This document shows, piece by piece, positions 4,592 to 31,009 of a stretch of 33,002 nucleotides of DNA. Every line of letters begins with the position of its first letter. Position 1 is the stretch's first letter. This DNA is from Methanosarcina spelaei. Its GTDB lineage: Archaea > Halobacteriota > Methanosarcinia > Methanosarcinales > Methanosarcinaceae. The translations under genes were made by a program, and so were the position numbers. The stretch lies in the NCBI RefSeq assembly GCF_002287235.1, contig NZ_LMVP01000357.1, forward strand, positions 1 through 33,002, in the 5' to 3' direction. The notes under the pieces are model-generated. The model did not search any database, was not told the DNA's origin, and saw only the letters and a program-made list of their open reading frames with translations.

Positions 4592-5942
4592 TTATTCGTT
4601 TCTCAAAATTATCTGTTCTTCAAAACGCCTGAGCCGGAAATTGAGCACAAAAACTGTATAGATTACCAGGCCTGCAATCAGGAAAGAAGTTCCTGCAAGT
4701 GTTTCATATAAAAGGCCGCCAAGGATAAGTCCTGTGATGCTGGCAAGGCCTCCGGAACTGCTGGCAACACCCTGTACCGTACCCTGGTATTTTCTCCCTG
4801 CGACTTTTGATAAGAGGGAAAGAAACGAAGGCCACATAATCCCGTCTCCAAGTGCAAAAAAACCGGCTGCAAGGTAGGTAAGGAAGACATTTCCGGGGAT
4901 GAGAAGCAGAAAATTCGTACCAAGCATAAGGCTTCCGAAAATTATAAGGACAACATCCGAATATTTTCTTGAAATCCTGGGAAGTACAGTACTCTGTACG
5001 AGTATCAGAAGCCCGCTCAATACCGTAAAATAAACGCCCATTTTTGCAATGCTCCAATTGAGAGTTGAAATTGCGTGTAAAGGAAAAGCTGTATAGAATA
5101 CATTGTAACCAAGGTCGATTAGAAAGTACAGTCCCAGCATGTAGGAAATGCCCGGAATTCTCAGAATTTCTCTGAAACCAGGTTTCGTTATCTCCTTTGT
5201 GATTTTGCATTTCCTGATCTCGTAACCGAAGATTTTCCGTACATTCCCAGCATCTTCAGGCTTACCGGGAGCGCACTCTTTACTTTCGGGAAGATAAAAT
5301 ATAACCAGCAATGTTCCGATAAGTGAGATTATTATTGCTCCAAGTACGGGAGCTACATCCCCATACGCTGTTAAGCTTAGTACTCCGGCAAGAGCAGGAC
5401 CAACTACAAATCCAAGATTCTCGGAAATCGACATTTTACCGAAATTTCGGCTCCGATCTCTTTCTAAAGTAATATCAGCCAGATACGCATTGGCTACCGA
5501 TACATTTCCTCCGGTCAGGTCCGTCAAGTGCTCTGGCGAAAAAGAGCACTACAAGAGGCAGGGTAACTGTAAAAGCTCCCAGAACTCCGGACTCGATTTT
5601 AAAGAGGCTTATTACCGGAAGAAAAAGAACCCCAAGGAAGATAATCCATGAAAGTAAAGTCCCTAGCTGGCTTATAAAAAGTATTTCTTTGCGGCCGTAA
5701 ATATCAGACCACCTGCCTAGAATAGGGGCTCCTATTAACTGAAAAGCCGGATACATCGAACTTGCCAGCCCATAAATAAAAGCATTCCCTCCCAGTCGGT
5801 TAACCAGAAATACCAGAAATGGGAGTACAATGCTAAACCCGAGCGTGCCTATGAAATTTACAGCAAGAATTGGAAGGAGGGAAACGTTTTCTCCTGTACG
5901 AGGACCTGGATTGCTTTTCTTGTCTTTGTTTTCCTTTTTCAT
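4592..5942 (-). pseudogene. MFS (DHA1-type) transporter, disrupted by a +1 frameshift
   Basis: Two overlapping frames together encode one transporter of about 450 aa. The N-terminal part (5942-5475) has several TM helices and the MFS motif A, GRWSDIYGRKE. The C-terminal part runs from about 5527 to 4592 and has TM helices 5-12. The N-terminal frame reads FFARALDG and then runs into nonsense (PDRRKCIG); the other frame continues with the expected LTGGNVSVANAYLADIT. The break is at the GG of plus-strand 5518-5519, where one extra base gives GGACCTGAC instead of GGACTGACC. The family exports drugs or small solutes by proton antiport; substrate not predictable. Start ATG at 5942 is preceded by GAGG. 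Either a true recent pseudogene or a sequencing error, since no other damage is visible. Confidence 0.85.
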
Positions 5943-9090: not shown

Positions 9091-10566
9091 TTATTTCTTA
9101 TAAATTATATTATATTCGCCAAGGTGTTCTCTTGCCAGTTCCCGCTTCTCCTGATGGTCTTTGAGGAACTCGTACATCTTTTCGGCTGCAAGCTGCTTGC
9201 ATGAGCCACACATCCTGGTTCCACAGACACATTCTTCTCTTATTTCCAGCAGTTCATCATCATTTTCTGCCAGGTGGAAAAGCAGCAGTTCGAAGACAGA
9301 ACATTCATCAGGTTTTCCACCCAATTTTTTTTGCTCTTCGAGGGTTACACAACCGCCGGTCTTTGCCCTTTTTACCTTTTTTGCACCTTCTTTCGGGTCG
9401 TCAGTTAGAGCAATATAACTGTCAGGGACGCTGCTCGACATCTTTCCTCCCTGCAGTCCACTCATGAAGCGGTGATAGGTAGATGCAGGAGGAATGAAAG
9501 CATAGCCTTCGAACTCAGCGGCTACTTCAGCTACAATCTCATCCAGTATTTTTCGGGTGAGTTTCCATACTTTTCTGAAAACAAAGTATTCTTCGTAACC
9601 TGAGAATTCATATGGTTTAATTTCATTAGCAAATTCCGAGACCTCTTCAAGCTCGGCCGTGAAGTATCTCTTTTTCTCAGGTTGGTTTATCTGCGAAACA
9701 AGTCTTTCCAGGAACGGATAGTCAGGAGTTTGAATTATGTCCAGGTGCTCTTCATAGAGTTTCACCTTACCCGGAATTCGTTTTTTGAGTTCCTGTAACG
9801 CTTCCTTCAGGGCTCCCTTGCCGCGCACGCTCAGGTATTTCCCGCCATTTGCGTTTTCTCTTTCCTCTACCCTGAACATGCTCATCTTGCCTGCAAGTCC
9901 TCGCGTCAGCCGAAGGTGAGGGTCCTGGTCAGGCCCTACAGGGACAACAACCGGCTTTGGTCCTCCAAATTCTTCAAGCTGTGGTTGAAGAATATCAGCG
10001 GCCTGGGTTGCTACACTTATCATATGGGAAAGGTTTGTCTCTCCCGAAAACCCATAAATAGCGCTCAATTCAGAGAAATTGATCTTGACACCGAGTTCAA
10101 ATGCGAGGTCTTTAACGCTGCCACATCCTGACTGGAAGTAAATAAGACCATCGGGCTTAAAACCGAGAGCAATAAGACTTAGTATATATTCTTCTACCCC
10201 AATTTCCCTGCATTTCTGCCAGGAAAAACCACGTACTGAGAAAGCCTCTCTGTCCGCAATCCCGACAAAAGCCGATGCTCCTCTTTGCTGGTGCCAGATT
10301 ATCTGGTCCATAACCATCTTGTGCCCGAGGTGAACTTTCCCTGAAGGCATAAAGCCGTCCATAACCGAAAAAGGGGCACCTGTCCTTATGGCCTCTGCAA
10401 TCTGTTCGTAATCACGGTGCCCGAAGATAACTCTTCTCCGCATATACATATGTGGAGAGGGGATTTCAGGAAGTACATTATCAAATGGAGAAATCCCGAA
10501 TTCTTCGAATAACTTGGAATAGTCATTAATCTCGCTTGAACTCCATGGATCAAGTTTATTAGTCAT
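9091..10566 (-). CDS. trpS: tryptophanyl-tRNA synthetase
   Basis: Class I synthetase that charges tRNA-Trp. With ATG 10566 the protein is 491 aa. HIGH-type motif [10 protein letters not shown] is at 74-83 and KMSSS at 375-379. The frame is open to 10728, but I chose 10566 because GAGGGA lies just upstream and the extra 54 residues do not look like TrpRS. The C-terminal region has cysteines 422, 446, 453 and 456 (C-x23-C-x6-C-x2-C), plus C406 and C448. This is very close to the pattern that holds a [4Fe-4S] cluster in Thermotoga maritima TrpRS (recalled as C-x22-C-x6-C-x2-C), so a metal or Fe-S site near the anticodon-recognition region is likely. A TATA-like AATATGTAAATG at 10688-10699 implies a leader of about 100 bases. 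Confidence 0.97.
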
Positions 10567-10869: not shown

Positions 10870-12096
10870 TTATTTTTCACAAACCTTTCCAAAAGGATAT
10901 GGCAGTTTTGCTCCTGCCGGAATCCTGTCAACAAACTCCATAAATTCCGGATCGTGCATCGGAGCCAGGCTTTTATGCTTCTGGAAGTAAGGGTAACCCC
11001 TGATTTTCTGCCAGGCGCTTTTTAAAGATTCTTCTTTTATACTCCCAAAACTGAAAGGCGGATAAGGACCGGCTTTTACATCTCCGTCTGCCGTTATGTG
11101 CATCCAGCGCCTGCCTTCCATTGCACCCAGCATCTGACCTTCAAAATAAGTATTCGCAAACATCCTTGGGCCATTCTGGCTGGAATTTATCCTGTGGTAC
11201 ATCTCAAGGATGCTTTTCCTGTCTTCGTCATTGAGTACAGGCTCATCCCTGGTTTTTGGCATTGCTTCCCAGACTGAAAATTCATGGACTCCGAGTTCTG
11301 ATGCAAGGTTATAGAGCGCAGGCAGTTCCTGTATATTTGAGGGAGATGCATGTGTTGTCATTACAACCATGAGCCCGGCTTCAAGTGCCAGTTTTATGGC
11401 AGAAACCGCTCTTTCGTATGCTCCCCTTGAGTTTCGGGCAGCATCATGTTTTTCAGGATCAGTTGAGTAAATGCCTACCATAAGGGAATGGAGCCCCGCA
11501 TCTTTCAGGCGAAAAGCCGTTTCTGCTGAAAAATCCGTACCCCAGGTGGAACAGTTTACTATAGCCCGCTTCTTGTCCACATACCTTATCAGCTCAAAAA
11601 CTTCTTCCCTCAGGAGAGGATCGTTTTCGGTAAATGTGATAATAAAGGTGCCGGATTCAAGGGCTTCATCGATTATTTTTTTTATAATATCCGTATCCAA
11701 TTCGTCTGCAACCGTTCCGGGTAAATATCTTGAGCTATTCTGGCGGGTAAGTTCAATGGATACGGTTTCAGGAATGTATTTTCCAAGAGCTATCTGTATT
11801 TCCGAAAAAATAAGGCGTTTAAATACCGGACTCGGGATTGGAGGGAGCCAGGCCGAAGCAATGACCCTGTCATCTTCTATGAGGGCTAATTTTTCCTCCT
11901 TGAGGCGGGAGTTCATCTTTTTCAAGATAGGGTTAAAAGCTGCTTTCAGAGTCCCGTTTGCCGTAAGCTCCGGAACATCCCCGACATGCCTCAGGTTTAC
12001 TGATAGTCCGGGAATTGAGAGAATTTCTATATTTTTCTCCTTTTTTTGAGCCTCTCTCAATGAAACTTCCGGTGAATCATCTTTTTCAAAAGTCAT
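10870..12096 (-). CDS. radical-SAM/SPASM-fold protein lacking all cluster cysteines
   Basis: A 408-aa protein that follows the radical SAM template closely but without its chemistry. The cluster loop reads LTRQNSSRYLPG (116-127): N120, Y124 and G127 occupy the CxxxCxxC positions. The SAM-binding GGEP is replaced by TENDPLLR (156-163). Later parts keep the family look: GTDFSAETAFRLKDAGLHSL (186-205), the HDAARNSRGAYERA region (217-230), and a SPASM-like tail (HITADGDVKAGPYPPFSFGS, 333-352) where cysteines would be expected but none occurs. The whole protein has only two Cys (182, 406). It therefore cannot bind the usual [4Fe-4S] clusters. The frame is intact and the ribosome binding site (GGAG before ATG 12096) is good, so this is a conserved-looking pseudoenzyme rather than a decaying gene. 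A TATA box (12129-12142) and an inverted repeat (12142-12174) lie upstream. Role unknown. Confidence 0.8.
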   Translation of the reverse strand: MTFEKDDSPEVSLREAQKKEKNIEILSIPGLSVNLRHVGDVPELTANGTLKAAFNPILKKMNSRLKEEKLALIEDDRVIASAWLPPIPSPVFKRLIFSEIQIALGKYIPETVSIELTRQNSSRYLPGTVADELDTDIIKKIIDEALESGTFIITFTENDPLLREEVFELIRYVDKKRAIVNCSTWGTDFSAETAFRLKDAGLHSLMVGIYSTDPEKHDAARNSRGAYERAVSAIKLALEAGLMVVMTTHASPSNIQELPALYNLASELGVHEFSVWEAMPKTRDEPVLNDEDRKSILEMYHRINSSQNGPRMFANTYFEGQMLGAMEGRRWMHITADGDVKAGPYPPFSFGSIKEESLKSAWQKIRGYPYFQKHKSLAPMHDPEFMEFVDRIPAGAKLPYPFGKVCEK

Positions 12097-12128
12097 TCTT
12101 TCTCCACAGATTCCTGATTTGCCTGCTG

Positions 12129-12174
12129 GATATTTATAATCAACCCTTTTTAAAACAATCTTTTTAAAAGGGTT
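12129..12174 (-). promoter_or_regulatory. promoter with inverted-repeat operator candidate
   Basis: On the minus strand GATTATAAATATCC (12129-12142) is a good archaeal TATA box, about 35-45 bases before the ATG at 12096. Directly upstream, over the BRE position, lies a perfect 9-bp inverted repeat: AACCCTTTT (12142-12150) and AAAAGGGTT (12166-12174). Its place suggests a binding site for a regulator of the radical-SAM-like gene; this is inference. Confidence 0.5.
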
Positions 12175-12436: not shown

Positions 12437-13048
12437 TCAGGCTGCTCTCTCTGAGAAAGCGAGGTTTCCGCTGATTTTCTTTATTTTTACTTTGACCACG
12501 TCGCCTTTTGAGGCTCCGGGCACGAAAACCGTATACTTGTCTATCTTTGCAATTCCGTCGCCTTTGGACCCGACTGCATCGATCCGGAGCTCATAGGTGC
12601 CGCCTTCTTCGATGGCATCCCTGACAACTACATTGCTTACCTTTCTCTTTTTGACAGGCCTGTGAGCTCCGCAAGCAGAACATCTCAGGATAAGTACCCT
12701 GTCCACCCTGACAAGCTGGGTGTCCGGGCGTCCGCATTCCGAACACATAACGTATTCGTCCACATAAGCCTGAATGTTATCAGAGATCTGGGCTCTCGTA
12801 AACCTTCCCTGGAAGACTGCACGTGTGCCTTCTATTTTCCCTGCAGTCCCAAGCTCCCTTGTGAGATATTTCATCAAGTGGTCAGGGTCCCGGTTAAGGA
12901 TATCTGCAATATTTCCGAAGTTCTCAAGAATTGTAGTTTTTCCTTCGGAAAAGATTCTGGGCTCAGGGATTACGAATCGAGCATCCGTAGTCTCGGTGTC
13001 AGGCATCTTCGCCATTGCACGGTTCAAAAGCTCTTCGTAATCGTACAT
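12437..13048 (-). CDS. translation initiation factor aIF2 beta subunit with TRAM domain
   Basis: Beta subunit of the archaeal aIF2 heterotrimer that brings Met-tRNAi to the ribosome. The 203 aa contain the aIF2-beta/eIF5 fold (about 20-100), a C4 zinc knuckle (C102, C105, C123, C126: CSECG and CSACG), and then a C-terminal TRAM domain (about 148-203, [20 protein letters not shown]). TRAM is an RNA-binding module, and its fusion to this factor is known from methanosarcinal archaea. The gene starts 35 bases after the L10e stop, so the two are almost surely one operon. Confidence 0.96.
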
Positions 13049-13083: not shown

Positions 13084-13908
<825 letters not shown>

Positions 13909-15045
13909 TTAGTGGTTTATAAGGTTTATTGCTGGTTCAGGGTATTTCTCCAGAAATCCTGCAAGGAGCCCAAAACAGCCTGAAAGCATCATGCTCCCGA
14001 AAGGCGCAGCAAAATGCAGTTTATTTGATATCTCTTCTCGGATTTCGGATTCCGAAACCTTCTCAAGCTTTTCTCTTTTTGGGCCCGTAACAAGTATAGA
14101 TCTAACCTGCTCAAAGCTAATTTGTTCAAAACCTGGAGTTTCCCTTCTATATGCACCATGCCCTCCGTCTTCGAAAACGTCGTCAAAACCAAGTTTTCCG
14201 TCGGCAAGCCTTATAATGTAGTCCTGGAGTTTTTCAGGACTCATGAGGGAAGTATGGTGCTCAAAAACGGCCATGATCCTGTTTTCGTTCACAAGCGCTC
14301 CCAGTGTATGCCCATTTCCTATATTAACCACAACACACGGCTGTACAGCCGCAGGATCGGTAAGTGCTCCGAAGATGGCTGCAGGCCCGGTATCCATGAA
14401 AACTGCCCTTGTTTTCCGGTTTCCAGCGGTTTTGAGAAGGGAATCTGCCTGGGCCTTCATTCGGGTAAAAGCCTCAGGAATTTCTTCGGGCCTGTAAACG
14501 AAGTTCTCAAGTTCTCCTCCCTTTTCAATGAGTTCTCGAAGCAATTCAAAACGGTAGATCCTGTTGCTCTTCTCAGGAGCGTTTCCGTGGTCCTGTACTG
14601 CCACGGCATAGTTTGTCGGCATCTGAACCTCAAAGGCCGAAAGTGCAGCTGAAGTTGATTCAGGATCGAAGTCCTGCATAATAATTTCCTGCGCATTTTC
14701 TTCGGATGCAAGCTTTTTTGCTTCCGCTTCCGAGACGATTTGAATTCCGAAAGCCTTTACTTTTTCAATGTTATCATTGATAGTCAAAGCAGCTTTTTCA
14801 GTAGCATATACCCGAAAACCTGCCTTTATATGAGTCCTGATAGCAAATGTTGAGGGGCCTCCTCCCATTATGTTTCCGGTAAACACTATTGTTTTTCCCT
14901 TTTTGGTAGCTTTCCGTACTTTTTTCGCAATTATCTGGGTAGGAGCAGGCATGACCATAAGCAGGCTATTTTCCACCTCTTTTTCTGAATTGAAGTACAG
15001 AATATCCTGAGTACCCGTTCCTACATCCACTGCAAGTATAAGCAT
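13909..15045 (-). CDS. DUF1786 family protein, actin-like ATPase fold
   Basis: A 378-aa soluble protein of the DUF1786 family, which is found in methanogens and a few bacteria and is often loosely labelled as related to pyruvate formate-lyase activation. It shows an ASKHA-type (actin/hexokinase) phosphate-binding pattern: AVDVGTGTQDILYF at the N-terminus, VFMDTGPAAIFGAL in the middle and VVNIGNGHTLGALV later. That suggests nucleotide binding; the substrate is unknown. No ribosome binding site precedes ATG 15045, but a TATA-like element on the minus strand (TTTTAATATC, 15066-15075) lies about 26 bases upstream, as expected for a leaderless mRNA. The 3' neighbour is rpl10e, 303 bases away. Confidence 0.85.
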   Translation of the reverse strand: MLILAVDVGTGTQDILYFNSEKEVENSLLMVMPAPTQIIAKKVRKATKKGKTIVFTGNIMGGGPSTFAIRTHIKAGFRVYATEKAALTINDNIEKVKAFGIQIVSEAEAKKLASEENAQEIIMQDFDPESTSAALSAFEVQMPTNYAVAVQDHGNAPEKSNRIYRFELLRELIEKGGELENFVYRPEEIPEAFTRMKAQADSLLKTAGNRKTRAVFMDTGPAAIFGALTDPAAVQPCVVVNIGNGHTLGALVNENRIMAVFEHHTSLMSPEKLQDYIIRLADGKLGFDDVFEDGGHGAYRRETPGFEQISFEQVRSILVTGPKREKLEKVSESEIREEISNKLHFAAPFGSMMLSGCFGLLAGFLEKYPEPAINLINH

Positions 15046-18950: not shown

Positions 18951-21590
18951 TTATGATCTTAAGTACCCATAAAAAATCATTTCTTCCAGCATACTATCAT
19001 ATAATCCTATTAAATTGTTTATAGTGATGCTGAAATAAGGATGATTGAGTCCGAGTTTCGTACAATCGATGATATCTACAGCCCGTTCGAATAGAGGTAA
19101 AGCTTCCTCATATTTTCCTATATTCGAATAAAATATCGCTAAGTTATTCAGTGTTACAGCGACATCTGGATGCTCTAGTCCTAAAGAATCCTCTAGTATT
19201 TTGAGTGCCCTTTGATAAAGTGGGAGCGCTTTTTCATACTCTCCCATATTGTTATAGAGTAATGCGATATTGTTCAGGGTTATTGCAATATCTGGGTGTT
19301 GTGGATCAAGCATCTTTTCACGGATATTAAGTGCTCTTTGATGAAGTGGAAGTGCTTTTTCGTAATCTCCCATCTGATGATAAAGTTCGGCAAGATTGTT
19401 TAGTGTTGCTGCAACAGTAGGGTGTTGTAAACCCAGCACATTTTCCTGAATATCAAGTGTTCTTTGATAAAGTGGGAGAGCTTTTTCGTATTCTCCCATA
19501 CTATTATAAAGTCCTGCGAGGTTGTTTAATGTTGTTGCAACATCAGGATGTTGGGGACCAAACACTTCTTCCTGAATATTAAGTGCTTTTTGATAAAGTG
19601 GAAGCGCTCTGTCATAATCTCCCATCTGATAATAGAGTAGTGAGAGATTGTTTAGTACTATTGCAACATCTGGATGTTGCGGATTAAATACTTTTTCACA
19701 GATTTCAAGTGCCCTTTGAGAAAGTTGGAGTGCTTTTTCATACTCCCCCATCTGACGATAGAGTAATGCGAGGTTATCTATTGTTGTTGCAACAGATGGG
19801 TGATATGGACCCAGCACCTTTTCATCGATTTCAAGAGCCTTTTGATAAAGTGAGAGTGCTTTTTCGTACTCTCCCATTTGACGATAGAGTTCAGCGAAAT
19901 TGTTTAGTGTTGTTGCAAAGTCTGGATGTTGCGAACCCAGCGTTTTTTCACGAATATCAAGTGTTCGTTGATAAAGTTGGAGTGCTTTTTCGTACTCTCC
20001 CATTCTTTTATAGAGTCCGGCGAGATTATTTAGTGCGGTTGCAACTGAAGGATTCTCCGGTCCGAGTTTTGCTTCAAGAATTTGCAGCATTTCTTCATAC
20101 ATAGAAGTAATTAACTGCCAGAATGCTGCTCTGTCGAAGGGATCCGATACCGAAATAAACCATTCGCATAATTCTTCTGCTTCCAGTGATTCTTTTGCAT
20201 GGTAGAATGCTTCAATCAATGCATTTTCGTGCTCTTGGGTTATTGCTTTAATATCAAGATCTTTTAGTTGATTGCTGTAGAAGTCAAGCATGAAATTATG
20301 GACTTCTTTTTTCAAATCTTGATCCTGGTTATCCTGCAAGCTTTTTCTCATAAGCTGGTGCATGGAACATTTTCCTTTATCGTCAATGTCCATAAAAGAA
20401 AAACTATGCAGTTCTGAAAAACTGGTTGCAGGATATCCGGTATTAAATTCCTTAACCAGTTTTTTGAATAATTCACGGTTCCAGTATCTGGGAACTGACA
20501 AGACTTTCAGTGTCTCTTTTTCTTCCCCATCAAGGTATTTGACAAATCTACAGAAAATACCTTCCGGAACCTTTGCAAAGTTTTCAGGTGTGGGCTGCTT
20601 TTTTTGCTTTATTTTTCTGTAAATATCGATGGAGAGTTCAAGATAATAGGGCACACCTTCACTGCTTTCGATGAGTACTTTCTGGATATTCTCTTCAGTG
20701 ATTCCGCACTGTTTTAACAGATCGAGAGCATCTTTTTCTGGAAGTTTTCCAATTTTACGCTGGTAAAGGTAATTTTTCCAGTCCTCATCCACTTCTTCCC
20801 AGCGAAGGGACTCTTTTCCACAAATTACCCACAGACAGGATTTTTGTATGTTTTCAATAAGTTTTCTGAGCCATTCATCTCTGGAATTGAAACTTCCTTT
20901 ATCTCTGTCCTTTTCCCAGAGGGCTTCATAAGTGTCTATGAAAATGACTGCGGATTCTGAAGTATTTTGCAGGTGATCAGCAAGATCATGAGCCAAGTAA
21001 ACAGGCAACCGTTCGTATATTTCTGTTGGTTCAAGATTCGGAAGTTTTGAAATATCTTCTTTGCGTTTCAGAGCCCATTTTTGATAACGTTCAGGTAAGC
21101 TTTTGGCAAGTTTATACACGTTTGGTATTAGGTTTACAGGAACAAATTCGTCGCAAATATCCAGAACATCGCGAACAATGCTGTTTTCGGAGTAATCTTC
21201 TTTTACCAGAGGACTATAGGGGTTGATTTTTTTCCAGTAGGTAGCAAGAGCGATGTCAAAAGAGTTGAATTTGATGCCGTATTTCTGGCGTAGCTGGCTG
21301 GAAAGAACTTCGAGGAACTTATAAGGCTGTCTGTATTGTTCGGTAGCGAAGTCTATTGAAGTCCATATAACTCTTGTGTGCCAGTCCGATTCGTTGTGTT
21401 TTTCGATCAAGGTTGGAAGTTCTTTTCTAAGGCTGGTTTTTCCAATTCCGGCAACGCCATAATATACCAGAATACTGTAGTTCTTTTGGTCGATATTCCA
21501 AAAGGCGTTCTCAAAAGCTTCGATGAACTCTTTCCTGTCAACGAATGGACATTTTACTTTTTCATCAAAATTTGCAGGGCAAACTGACAC
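18951..21590 (-). CDS. STAND (NB-ARC-like) ATPase with TPR repeats
   Basis: An 879-aa signalling ATPase. Walker A GVAGIGKTS (45-53), Walker B AVIFIDTYE (214-222), an arginine-sensor-like WVICGKESLRW (254-264), a GLPL-like SSEGVPYYLEL (309-319) and an MHD-like SMHQLMRKSL (409-418) give a complete STAND/NB-ARC module at about 14-425. After a helical linker come eight full 42-aa kinesin-light-chain-type TPRs from residue 513 and a ninth that is cut short. STAND proteins oligomerise when the repeat domain senses a ligand, and many act in immunity or regulation. No N-terminal effector domain is present. The start is GTG 21590, with GGAGGA 6 bases upstream. It is divergent from the cobalamin adenosyltransferase gene and has no defence genes around it. 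A REP hairpin follows the stop. Ligand and output unknown. Confidence 0.9.
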   Translation of the reverse strand: MSVCPANFDEKVKCPFVDRKEFIEAFENAFWNIDQKNYSILVYYGVAGIGKTSLRKELPTLIEKHNESDWHTRVIWTSIDFATEQYRQPYKFLEVLSSQLRQKYGIKFNSFDIALATYWKKINPYSPLVKEDYSENSIVRDVLDICDEFVPVNLIPNVYKLAKSLPERYQKWALKRKEDISKLPNLEPTEIYERLPVYLAHDLADHLQNTSESAVIFIDTYEALWEKDRDKGSFNSRDEWLRKLIENIQKSCLWVICGKESLRWEEVDEDWKNYLYQRKIGKLPEKDALDLLKQCGITEENIQKVLIESSEGVPYYLELSIDIYRKIKQKKQPTPENFAKVPEGIFCRFVKYLDGEEKETLKVLSVPRYWNRELFKKLVKEFNTGYPATSFSELHSFSFMDIDDKGKCSMHQLMRKSLQDNQDQDLKKEVHNFMLDFYSNQLKDLDIKAITQEHENALIEAFYHAKESLEAEELCEWFISVSDPFDRAAFWQLITSMYEEMLQILEAKLGPENPSVATALNNLAGLYKRMGEYEKALQLYQRTLDIREKTLGSQHPDFATTLNNFAELYRQMGEYEKALSLYQKALEIDEKVLGPYHPSVATTIDNLALLYRQMGEYEKALQLSQRALEICEKVFNPQHPDVAIVLNNLSLLYYQMGDYDRALPLYQKALNIQEEVFGPQHPDVATTLNNLAGLYNSMGEYEKALPLYQRTLDIQENVLGLQHPTVAATLNNLAELYHQMGDYEKALPLHQRALNIREKMLDPQHPDIAITLNNIALLYNNMGEYEKALPLYQRALKILEDSLGLEHPDVAVTLNNLAIFYSNIGKYEEALPLFERAVDIIDCTKLGLNHPYFSITINNLIGLYDSMLEEMIFYGYLRS
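18954..20054 (-). repeat. 126-bp TPR-coding repeats
   Basis: Eight complete and one partial 126-bp repeat coding TPR units of the form HPDVATTLNNLAGLY..MGEYEKALPLYQRAL. DNA similarity between units is high, so copy number can change by recombination without loss of frame. Confidence 0.9.
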
Positions 21591-30384: not shown

Positions 30385-31009
30385 ATGAATCTTAAAAATA
30401 CACTGGGTATTTTGCTGGCAGTTTGTTTTTTACTGTCAATTGCCGCAGTGGCAGTAAATTCCAAAGAAGCGCCCTGTACGGCTGGTAAGGAAACATATAA
30501 GCCTGCAGAGAAGCCTGCAGAGAAGACAAAAAACAAAATGAAAGGATTTTCTATTAATATCGAAAATGCTACTTTGGAAAATAACAATTTCCGCAAGGTG
30601 CTCTATACTGCAAAGTATAGCCAGCTGGTACTTATGAGCCTCAAGCCCGGAGAAGAAATCGGAATGGAAGTGCATGAGGAAAATGACCAGTTTTTCCGTT
30701 TTAAGAAGGACAGGGGAAATCGGAATGGAAGTGCATGAGGAAAATGACCAGTTTTTCCGTTTTGAAGAAGGACAGGGAAAGTGTATAATTAACGGTAACG
30801 AGTATGAAGTAGGTAACGGGTCTGCGGTGGTTGTGCCTGCCGGTGCTCAGCACAATATCATTAACACTTTGGAAACAGGTCCTCTGAAATTCTATGTGAT
30901 CTATTCGCCACCTGTTCACAAGGATCAAACCACGCACGCCACAAAGGAAGAAGCTGAGGCAAATCCAGATACATTTGACGGTGTAACTACGGAATGTAAC
31001 CAGGGATAA
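30385..31009 (+). pseudogene. secreted cupin-domain protein broken by a tandem duplication
   Basis: The start (ATG 30385, after GGGGGAG) gives a signal peptide (about residues 1-25, ILLAVCFLLSIAAVAV), a Lys/Pro/Glu-rich linker and the first strand of a cupin barrel, then fails in frame at about 30720. The second frame (to 31009) holds the rest of the barrel, with EGQGKCIINGNEYEVGNGSA and VPAGAQHNIINT. The cause is a 61/62-bp tandem duplication (30655-30715 and 30716-30777) whose copies differ by one base. Removing one copy restores an intact small-molecule or metal-binding cupin of about 186 aa with its metal-ligand pattern (EVHEENDQFFRF, PAGAQHN). The protein would be outside the membrane. 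The ligand is unknown. Confidence 0.85.
30655..30777 (+). repeat. 61/62-bp tandem duplication inside the cupin gene
   Basis: Both copies begin GAAATCGGAATGGAAGTGC and end GACAGGG. Copy 1 (30655-30715) reads TTTTAAGAAGG where copy 2 (30716-30777) reads TTTTGAAGAAGG, a one-base loss. Copy 2 fits the downstream cupin frame. Confidence 0.95.

Follow-up and report, generated by a model that had tools for sequence, protein, structure and literature searches.

The sequence analysed (hereafter the window) is a 33,002-nt stretch of a Methanosarcina spelaei contig. An open reading frame on its minus strand, between positions 10870 and 12096, runs from an ATG to a TAA stop codon and encodes a 408-aa protein, the positional orthologue of cysteine-bearing radical SAM/SPASM enzymes, which itself contains just two cysteines, as the first-pass annotation of this DNA had counted. 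A GGAG ribosome-binding site (12102 to 12105, minus strand) precedes the ATG by 5 nt, and a TATA-like box, TTATAAATA (12131 to 12139, minus strand), lies about 35 nt upstream of the same codon; both were recognized by sequence only and are consistent with the promoter and good ribosome-binding site proposed previously. The gene sits, as also stated there, between those for aIF2-beta (upstream, 12437 to 13048) and trpS (downstream, 9091 to 10566), with the gene for ribosomal protein L10e at positions 13084 to 13605; these three neighbours are conserved and all lie on the minus strand. A DUF1786 protein (13909 to 15045, minus strand; in Pfam a putative pyruvate formate-lyase activating enzyme, DDR-like) also belongs to this block, and many genera have preserved it there.

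The Pfam Radical_SAM model (PF04055) matches residues 129 to 262 of the protein (1.1e-14; 55.4 bits against a cut-off of 29.5), and the structure and PDB matches extend the barrel to approximately residues 105 to 282 (11251 to 11784, minus strand). The AlphaFold comparison recommended in the first-pass annotation gave a model with a pLDDT of 89.8 and a pTM of 0.90, whose closest PDB structures are SkfB (Z 23.2) and PqqE (Z 23.1). With Z values of 19 to 23 to radical SAM structures, the protein belongs to this superfamily by fold and homology. Preceding the barrel is an extension of three strands plus helices (residues 20 to 103; 11788 to 12039, minus strand), which is common to the cysteine-bearing paralogues and has no match in Pfam. 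The idea that it is a known peptide-recognition element was set aside for want of such a match, although it may still be one. The SPASM-like region (residues 311 to 378; 10963 to 11166, minus strand) scores 19.1 bits with the SPASM model (PF13186), under the 21.5-bit cut-off, and the four auxiliary-cluster ligands of the orthologues (cysteines at 325, 335, 343 and 378 in the numbering of the window protein) are all replaced, in agreement with the claim of a cysteine-free C-terminal region.

The former cluster loop (residues 120 to 127; 11716 to 11739, minus strand) reads N.S.Y..G where active orthologues have C.C.C..C. Since the two loops align without gaps (TREC-KCN-C-EH-C in orthologues versus TRQN-SSR-Y-LP-G here), N120, Y124 and G127 fall exactly on three cluster cysteines, as had been noticed, and S122 on a fourth invariant one. 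No Methanosarcina orthologue examined has CxxxCxxC. The loop is also predicted to be disordered, and nowhere else in the barrel is the model so poor: the block of residues 121 to 130 has a mean pLDDT of 52, with residues 125 to 127 below 50, against 74 and 81 for the matching blocks 111 to 120 and 121 to 130 in the model of a cysteine-bearing orthologue. The motif expected to bind SAM has likewise changed, to ENDP (residues 157 to 160; 11617 to 11628, minus strand). The first-pass annotation was correct about ENDP but had derived it from GGEP; active orthologues carry EGDP, the ancestral form of the family, so that the change peculiar to Methanosarcina is from EGDP to ENDP, and GGE is found in paralogues. 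Altogether, these data show a protein with the radical SAM fold that cannot hold the canonical cluster.

The best structural and profile matches, PqqE, SkfB, AhbD and NirJ (PF04055 plus PF13186), share the barrel and SPASM-like layout; the Methanosarcina protein differs from them in lacking cluster ligands and in having the additional N-terminal domain of approximately 100 aa that it shares with its own paralogues. None of the curated equivalog models reached its cut-off. Radical SAM pseudoenzymes are not without precedent, as NCBI has named a haloarchaeal family pseudo-SAM/SPASM (TIGR04347). The protein studied here scores 66.2 bits against that model, whose cut-off is 525; because it lies outside that family, the cysteines were presumably lost in two separate events. 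Cysteine-bearing orthologues and paralogues from Methanosarcinales are homologous over the full length and have the same N-terminal domain, the orthologues also occupying the same locus; unlike in the pseudoenzyme, the loop cysteines (C.C.C..C or CxxxCxxC), the motif EGDP or GGE and the SPASM-like cysteines are all still present.

Orthologues, positional or best-matching, keep both C.C.C..C and EGDP in Methanolobus, Methanococcoides, Methanohalophilus, Methanosalsum, Methanomethylovorans, ANME-3, ANME-2 and Methanothrix, with CxxxCxxC in place of C.C.C..C in one Methanothrix-type sequence (some of these genomes are ones that we take to be Methanothrix, Methanosalsum and others). Thus, outside the branch described below, cysteines are retained in every Methanosarcinaceae genus sampled as well as in ANME-2 and Methanothrix. 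Eight cysteines are invariant among the aligned active orthologues (120, 122, 124, 127, 325, 335, 343 and 378). The Methanosarcina type has lost every one of them, whereas among the other conserved columns only 26 of 161 have changed, a difference beyond chance (Fisher p 1.3e-6). The Methanimicrococcus orthologue is cysteine-less too, yet it has kept EGDP, and one further genus has preserved only the middle one of the loop cysteines. The EGDP of Methanimicrococcus, together with its other replacements, initially led us to suspect independent losses there and in Methanosarcina; this was rejected on the evidence of two trees and one substitution. In the gene tree the cysteine-less sequences form a single group (support 100/97, 100% of bootstraps), and the organisms that carry them also group together in a separate species tree built from RpoB, PheS, TrpS, aIF2beta and L10e (SH-aLRT 99). 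Furthermore, all cysteine-less lineages have in common the change P185W (11542 to 11544, minus strand), just after the third barrel strand, where active orthologues have proline. The cysteines were therefore lost once, in an ancestor that Methanosarcina and two sister genera share with Methanimicrococcus and one other genus, and the loss, shared by the whole of this branch and not found beyond it, now sets apart active-looking and cysteine-less genes of sister genera at the same chromosomal position.

Locus order is nearly constant across the family (L10e, aIF2beta, in some a KaiC-like ATPase, the radical SAM-type gene, trpS, pheS). The ATPase, KaiC/RecA-like, separates aIF2beta from the cysteine-bearing radical SAM gene in many genera (L067:3511-3830; also L058, L059, L072, L073 and L075), is reduced to a decayed remnant in a Methanococcoides-type locus and is missing from Methanosarcina. 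A connection between this gene and the cysteine loss was considered and dropped: it is present in many cysteine-keeping genera but not tied to the loss.

The first-pass annotation had predicted a conserved gene and proposed examining its dN/dS; it had also held that close orthologues retaining CxxxCxxC would point to local decay. Matches to the pseudoenzyme gene were found in all 31 Methanosarcina genomes searched, without internal stops, and in 112 of 112 genomes of the family Methanosarcinaceae, and the reduced Methanimicrococcus genomes keep the pseudoenzyme as well. The median pairwise dN/dS of the Methanosarcina pseudoenzyme is 0.117 (NG86, a rough estimate); active orthologues gave 0.061, TrpS 0.072 and L10e 0.102. 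The gene has thus been under purifying selection (dN/dS approximately 0.12) since the loss. Orthologues do retain their cysteines, as that argument envisaged, but local decay does not follow, because a single ancient loss is common to all descendants and the frame has been kept. Slow decay of a gene on its way out, which might be read into a dN/dS roughly double the value found for active orthologues and into the faster evolution seen in Methanimicrococcus and its sister genus, is scarcely credible for a gene that shows these retention counts, this level of constraint and so selective a loss of cysteines; its maintenance since the ancestor of several genera refutes the idea in the main. One Methanosarcina copy (L054, G002:C1:39369-40555) has an in-frame TAG or a frame change near the C-terminus; in such organisms a TAG codon may specify pyrrolysine.

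The active set has 169 conserved columns, and the two cysteine-less branches both retain 95 of these, including T156, E157, D159, P160, S211, T248, H249, W276 and E277, which lie at barrel-strand ends and are putative ligand-contact residues. Three positions beside the putative SAM site (G158, S208 and T245) have changed in Methanosarcina-type proteins; Methanimicrococcus retains S208 as well as EGDP, so that the two branches have changed differently after the loss. One could argue from this pattern, in which other pocket-side residues are kept next to the altered SAM site and the branches diverge in their own ways, that the reaction carried out by the active orthologue was no longer needed (through another carrier structure or another enzyme) and that the protein was preserved for an unrelated binding function, such as that of a chaperone or a sensor of a pathway intermediate. 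We regard this as unlikely, though worth keeping in mind: all descendants, even those with genomes of 1.3 to 1.8 Mb, have kept the gene, and the partner genes are present in these genomes, which is better explained by a function inside the pathway.

The location of the gene between aIF2-beta and trpS, noted earlier as odd for this superfamily, might be taken as a hint of its function. A moonlighting role in translation or its regulation would accord with the conservation of the L10e-aIF2beta-gene-trpS-pheS block through most of the family, but catalytic orthologues have the same neighbours, and the association is broken elsewhere. The gene lies away from the L10e-aIF2beta block in Methanothrix and in most ANME-2 loci read; in Methanimicrococcus trpS is not directly downstream, and in two of the loci read from this genus a fourth radical SAM gene is found just upstream of the L10e-aIF2beta pair; in deep lineages of the phylum the gene belongs to a prenyl-lipid/radical-SAM cluster. 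The translation block is thus an inherited position rather than a clue to function, and we consider a role in translation very improbable.

A more informative context is provided by the paralogues. Methanosarcina genomes encode two further full-length proteins of this type (about 37% identity), with the same N-terminal domain and the cluster cysteines kept. A second, cysteine-bearing copy of the pseudoenzyme gene was looked for in Methanosarcina and discarded: the three strong matches per genome are accounted for by the pseudoenzyme and paralogues 2 and 3. Paralogue 2 adjoins the gene for geranylfarnesyl-diphosphate synthase (equivalog GFPS_Meth, NF040627; 623 bits, above cut-off), and paralogue 3 adjoins a UbiA-type prenyltransferase and a geranylgeranyl-reductase-like flavoprotein (GGR). 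In the genome from which the window derives, the four radical SAM genes do not lie together but are found on different contigs, which speaks against the reading proposed below. Deep relatives, from several other families of the phylum, have a single cluster in which two or three proteins of this radical SAM family are accompanied by the reductase and by a fourth radical SAM protein, which is MoaA-like; most of these clusters also encode an NMT1-like binding protein and a UbiA protein. The first gene of this cluster is orthologous to the pseudoenzyme gene (98/98, shared EGDP signature); for paralogues 2 and 3, the tree gives no such clear orthology between Methanosarcinales and the deep lineages. 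The SsuA/NMT1-like protein ends the radical SAM/UbiA cluster of the deep relatives, where no transporter genes are evident (L267:8119-9000; also L290 and L291), and could be one of the pathway enzymes.

The distribution of these genes was profiled in 393 genomes of the phylum, which are not independent of one another. The trio matches in 95 and the fourth radical SAM protein in 94; both occur in 92 of the 97 genomes that have either. The set is missing from nearly all genomes of two Methanosarcinales families, one of them Methanoperedens-like, and tested members of both have MqnA/MqnD, of the futalosine route to menaquinone. Conversely, MqnA/D (PF02621) was found in none of 22 carriers examined. 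Co-occurrence among members of the set and exclusion of menaquinone genes are as expected for two membrane electron carriers that substitute for each other. One genome (G349, family code f9) is an exception to the profile: it has menaquinone genes and lacks the trio, yet the fourth radical SAM protein has a good relative there.

Methanophenazine links the electron-transport chain in acetate- and methyl-using methanogens and in several methane-oxidising archaea, and in the gut-dwelling Methanimicrococcus group it is the sole energy-coupling carrier (PMC11362671). Its biosynthetic pathway was described as "not deciphered" in 2021 (PMC8546582), the one known enzyme being the geranylfarnesyl-diphosphate synthase MM_0789 that makes the side chain (PMC3017947, PMC8546582). 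As it is this synthase that adjoins paralogue 2, and the distribution of the set follows the lineages lacking futalosine menaquinone genes, methanophenazine is strongly suggested as the product on genomic grounds. Another cofactor or lipid, served by the pseudoenzyme in its turn, would be a quite unlikely product of the four-gene set. Its best arguments are the AhbC/AhbD-like heme enzymes among the nearest curated radical SAM models and the deep carriers, which gave no strong match to geranylfarnesyl synthase; at the cut-off used this synthase was not found in all trio carriers across the phylum, and the product need therefore not be methanophenazine everywhere. The heme pathway was nevertheless rejected: the AhbD model (heme b synthase, TIGR04545) scores 104.1 bits, far below its cut-off of 500, the AhbC cut-off is likewise far from reached, and heme would leave the exclusion of menaquinone genes unexplained. 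The UbiA, prenyl reductase and geranylfarnesyl synthase neighbours point instead to a prenylated carrier.

Homology, fold, synteny, a single loss, retention and constraint together define the history of the pseudoenzyme. As to its present function, we lean towards membership in a methanophenazine-biosynthesis set, in which this protein, having lost its Fe-S ligands, would now be a non-catalytic subunit or a partner binding a substrate or intermediate. The first-pass suggestions of substrate binding or of regulation of an active paralogue are both possible. The paralogous radical SAM/SPASM proteins, the fourth, MoaA-like radical SAM protein, the UbiA-type prenyltransferase and the geranylgeranyl-reductase-like flavoprotein would, most likely, make methanophenazine. 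In the lineage that gave rise to Methanosarcina and Methanimicrococcus along with three allied genera, one member lost its Fe-S ligands but kept its fold and putative ligand-contact residues. It would therefore probably act today as a non-catalytic partner of its cysteine-bearing paralogues, as a subunit or by binding a substrate or intermediate. More tentatively, we envisage an anaerobic radical-SAM route to methanophenazine involving four proteins of radical SAM fold, UbiA and a prenyl reductase, in which the pseudoenzyme would have become an obligate non-catalytic subunit.

In the literature searched, which did not extend to preprints or to most subscription journals, nothing, biochemical or genetic, was found on these genes under radical SAM pseudoenzymes, methanophenazine genes or Methanosarcina Tn-seq, and none of the papers retrieved assigns a radical SAM gene to the methanophenazine pathway. 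The analysis provides a defined list of candidate genes for the methanophenazine ring and its prenylation, which can be tested in the genetically tractable Methanosarcina. It also describes a natural experiment, in which one chromosomal position holds an active-looking radical SAM gene or, following loss on one branch, a cysteine-less one.

Three other features of the window deserve mention. A major-facilitator transporter (4592 to 5942, minus strand) is split over the overlapping frames 5475 to 5942 and 4592 to 5527, as by one frameshift. A 61-nt tandem duplication (30655 to 30776, plus strand), the first 48 nt of which are identical between the two copies, is not a multiple of three in length and puts a cupin gene (30385 to 31009) out of frame. 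Finally, an 879-aa protein (18951 to 21590, minus strand) combines an NTPase-like N-terminal half with a long, highly regular TPR array.
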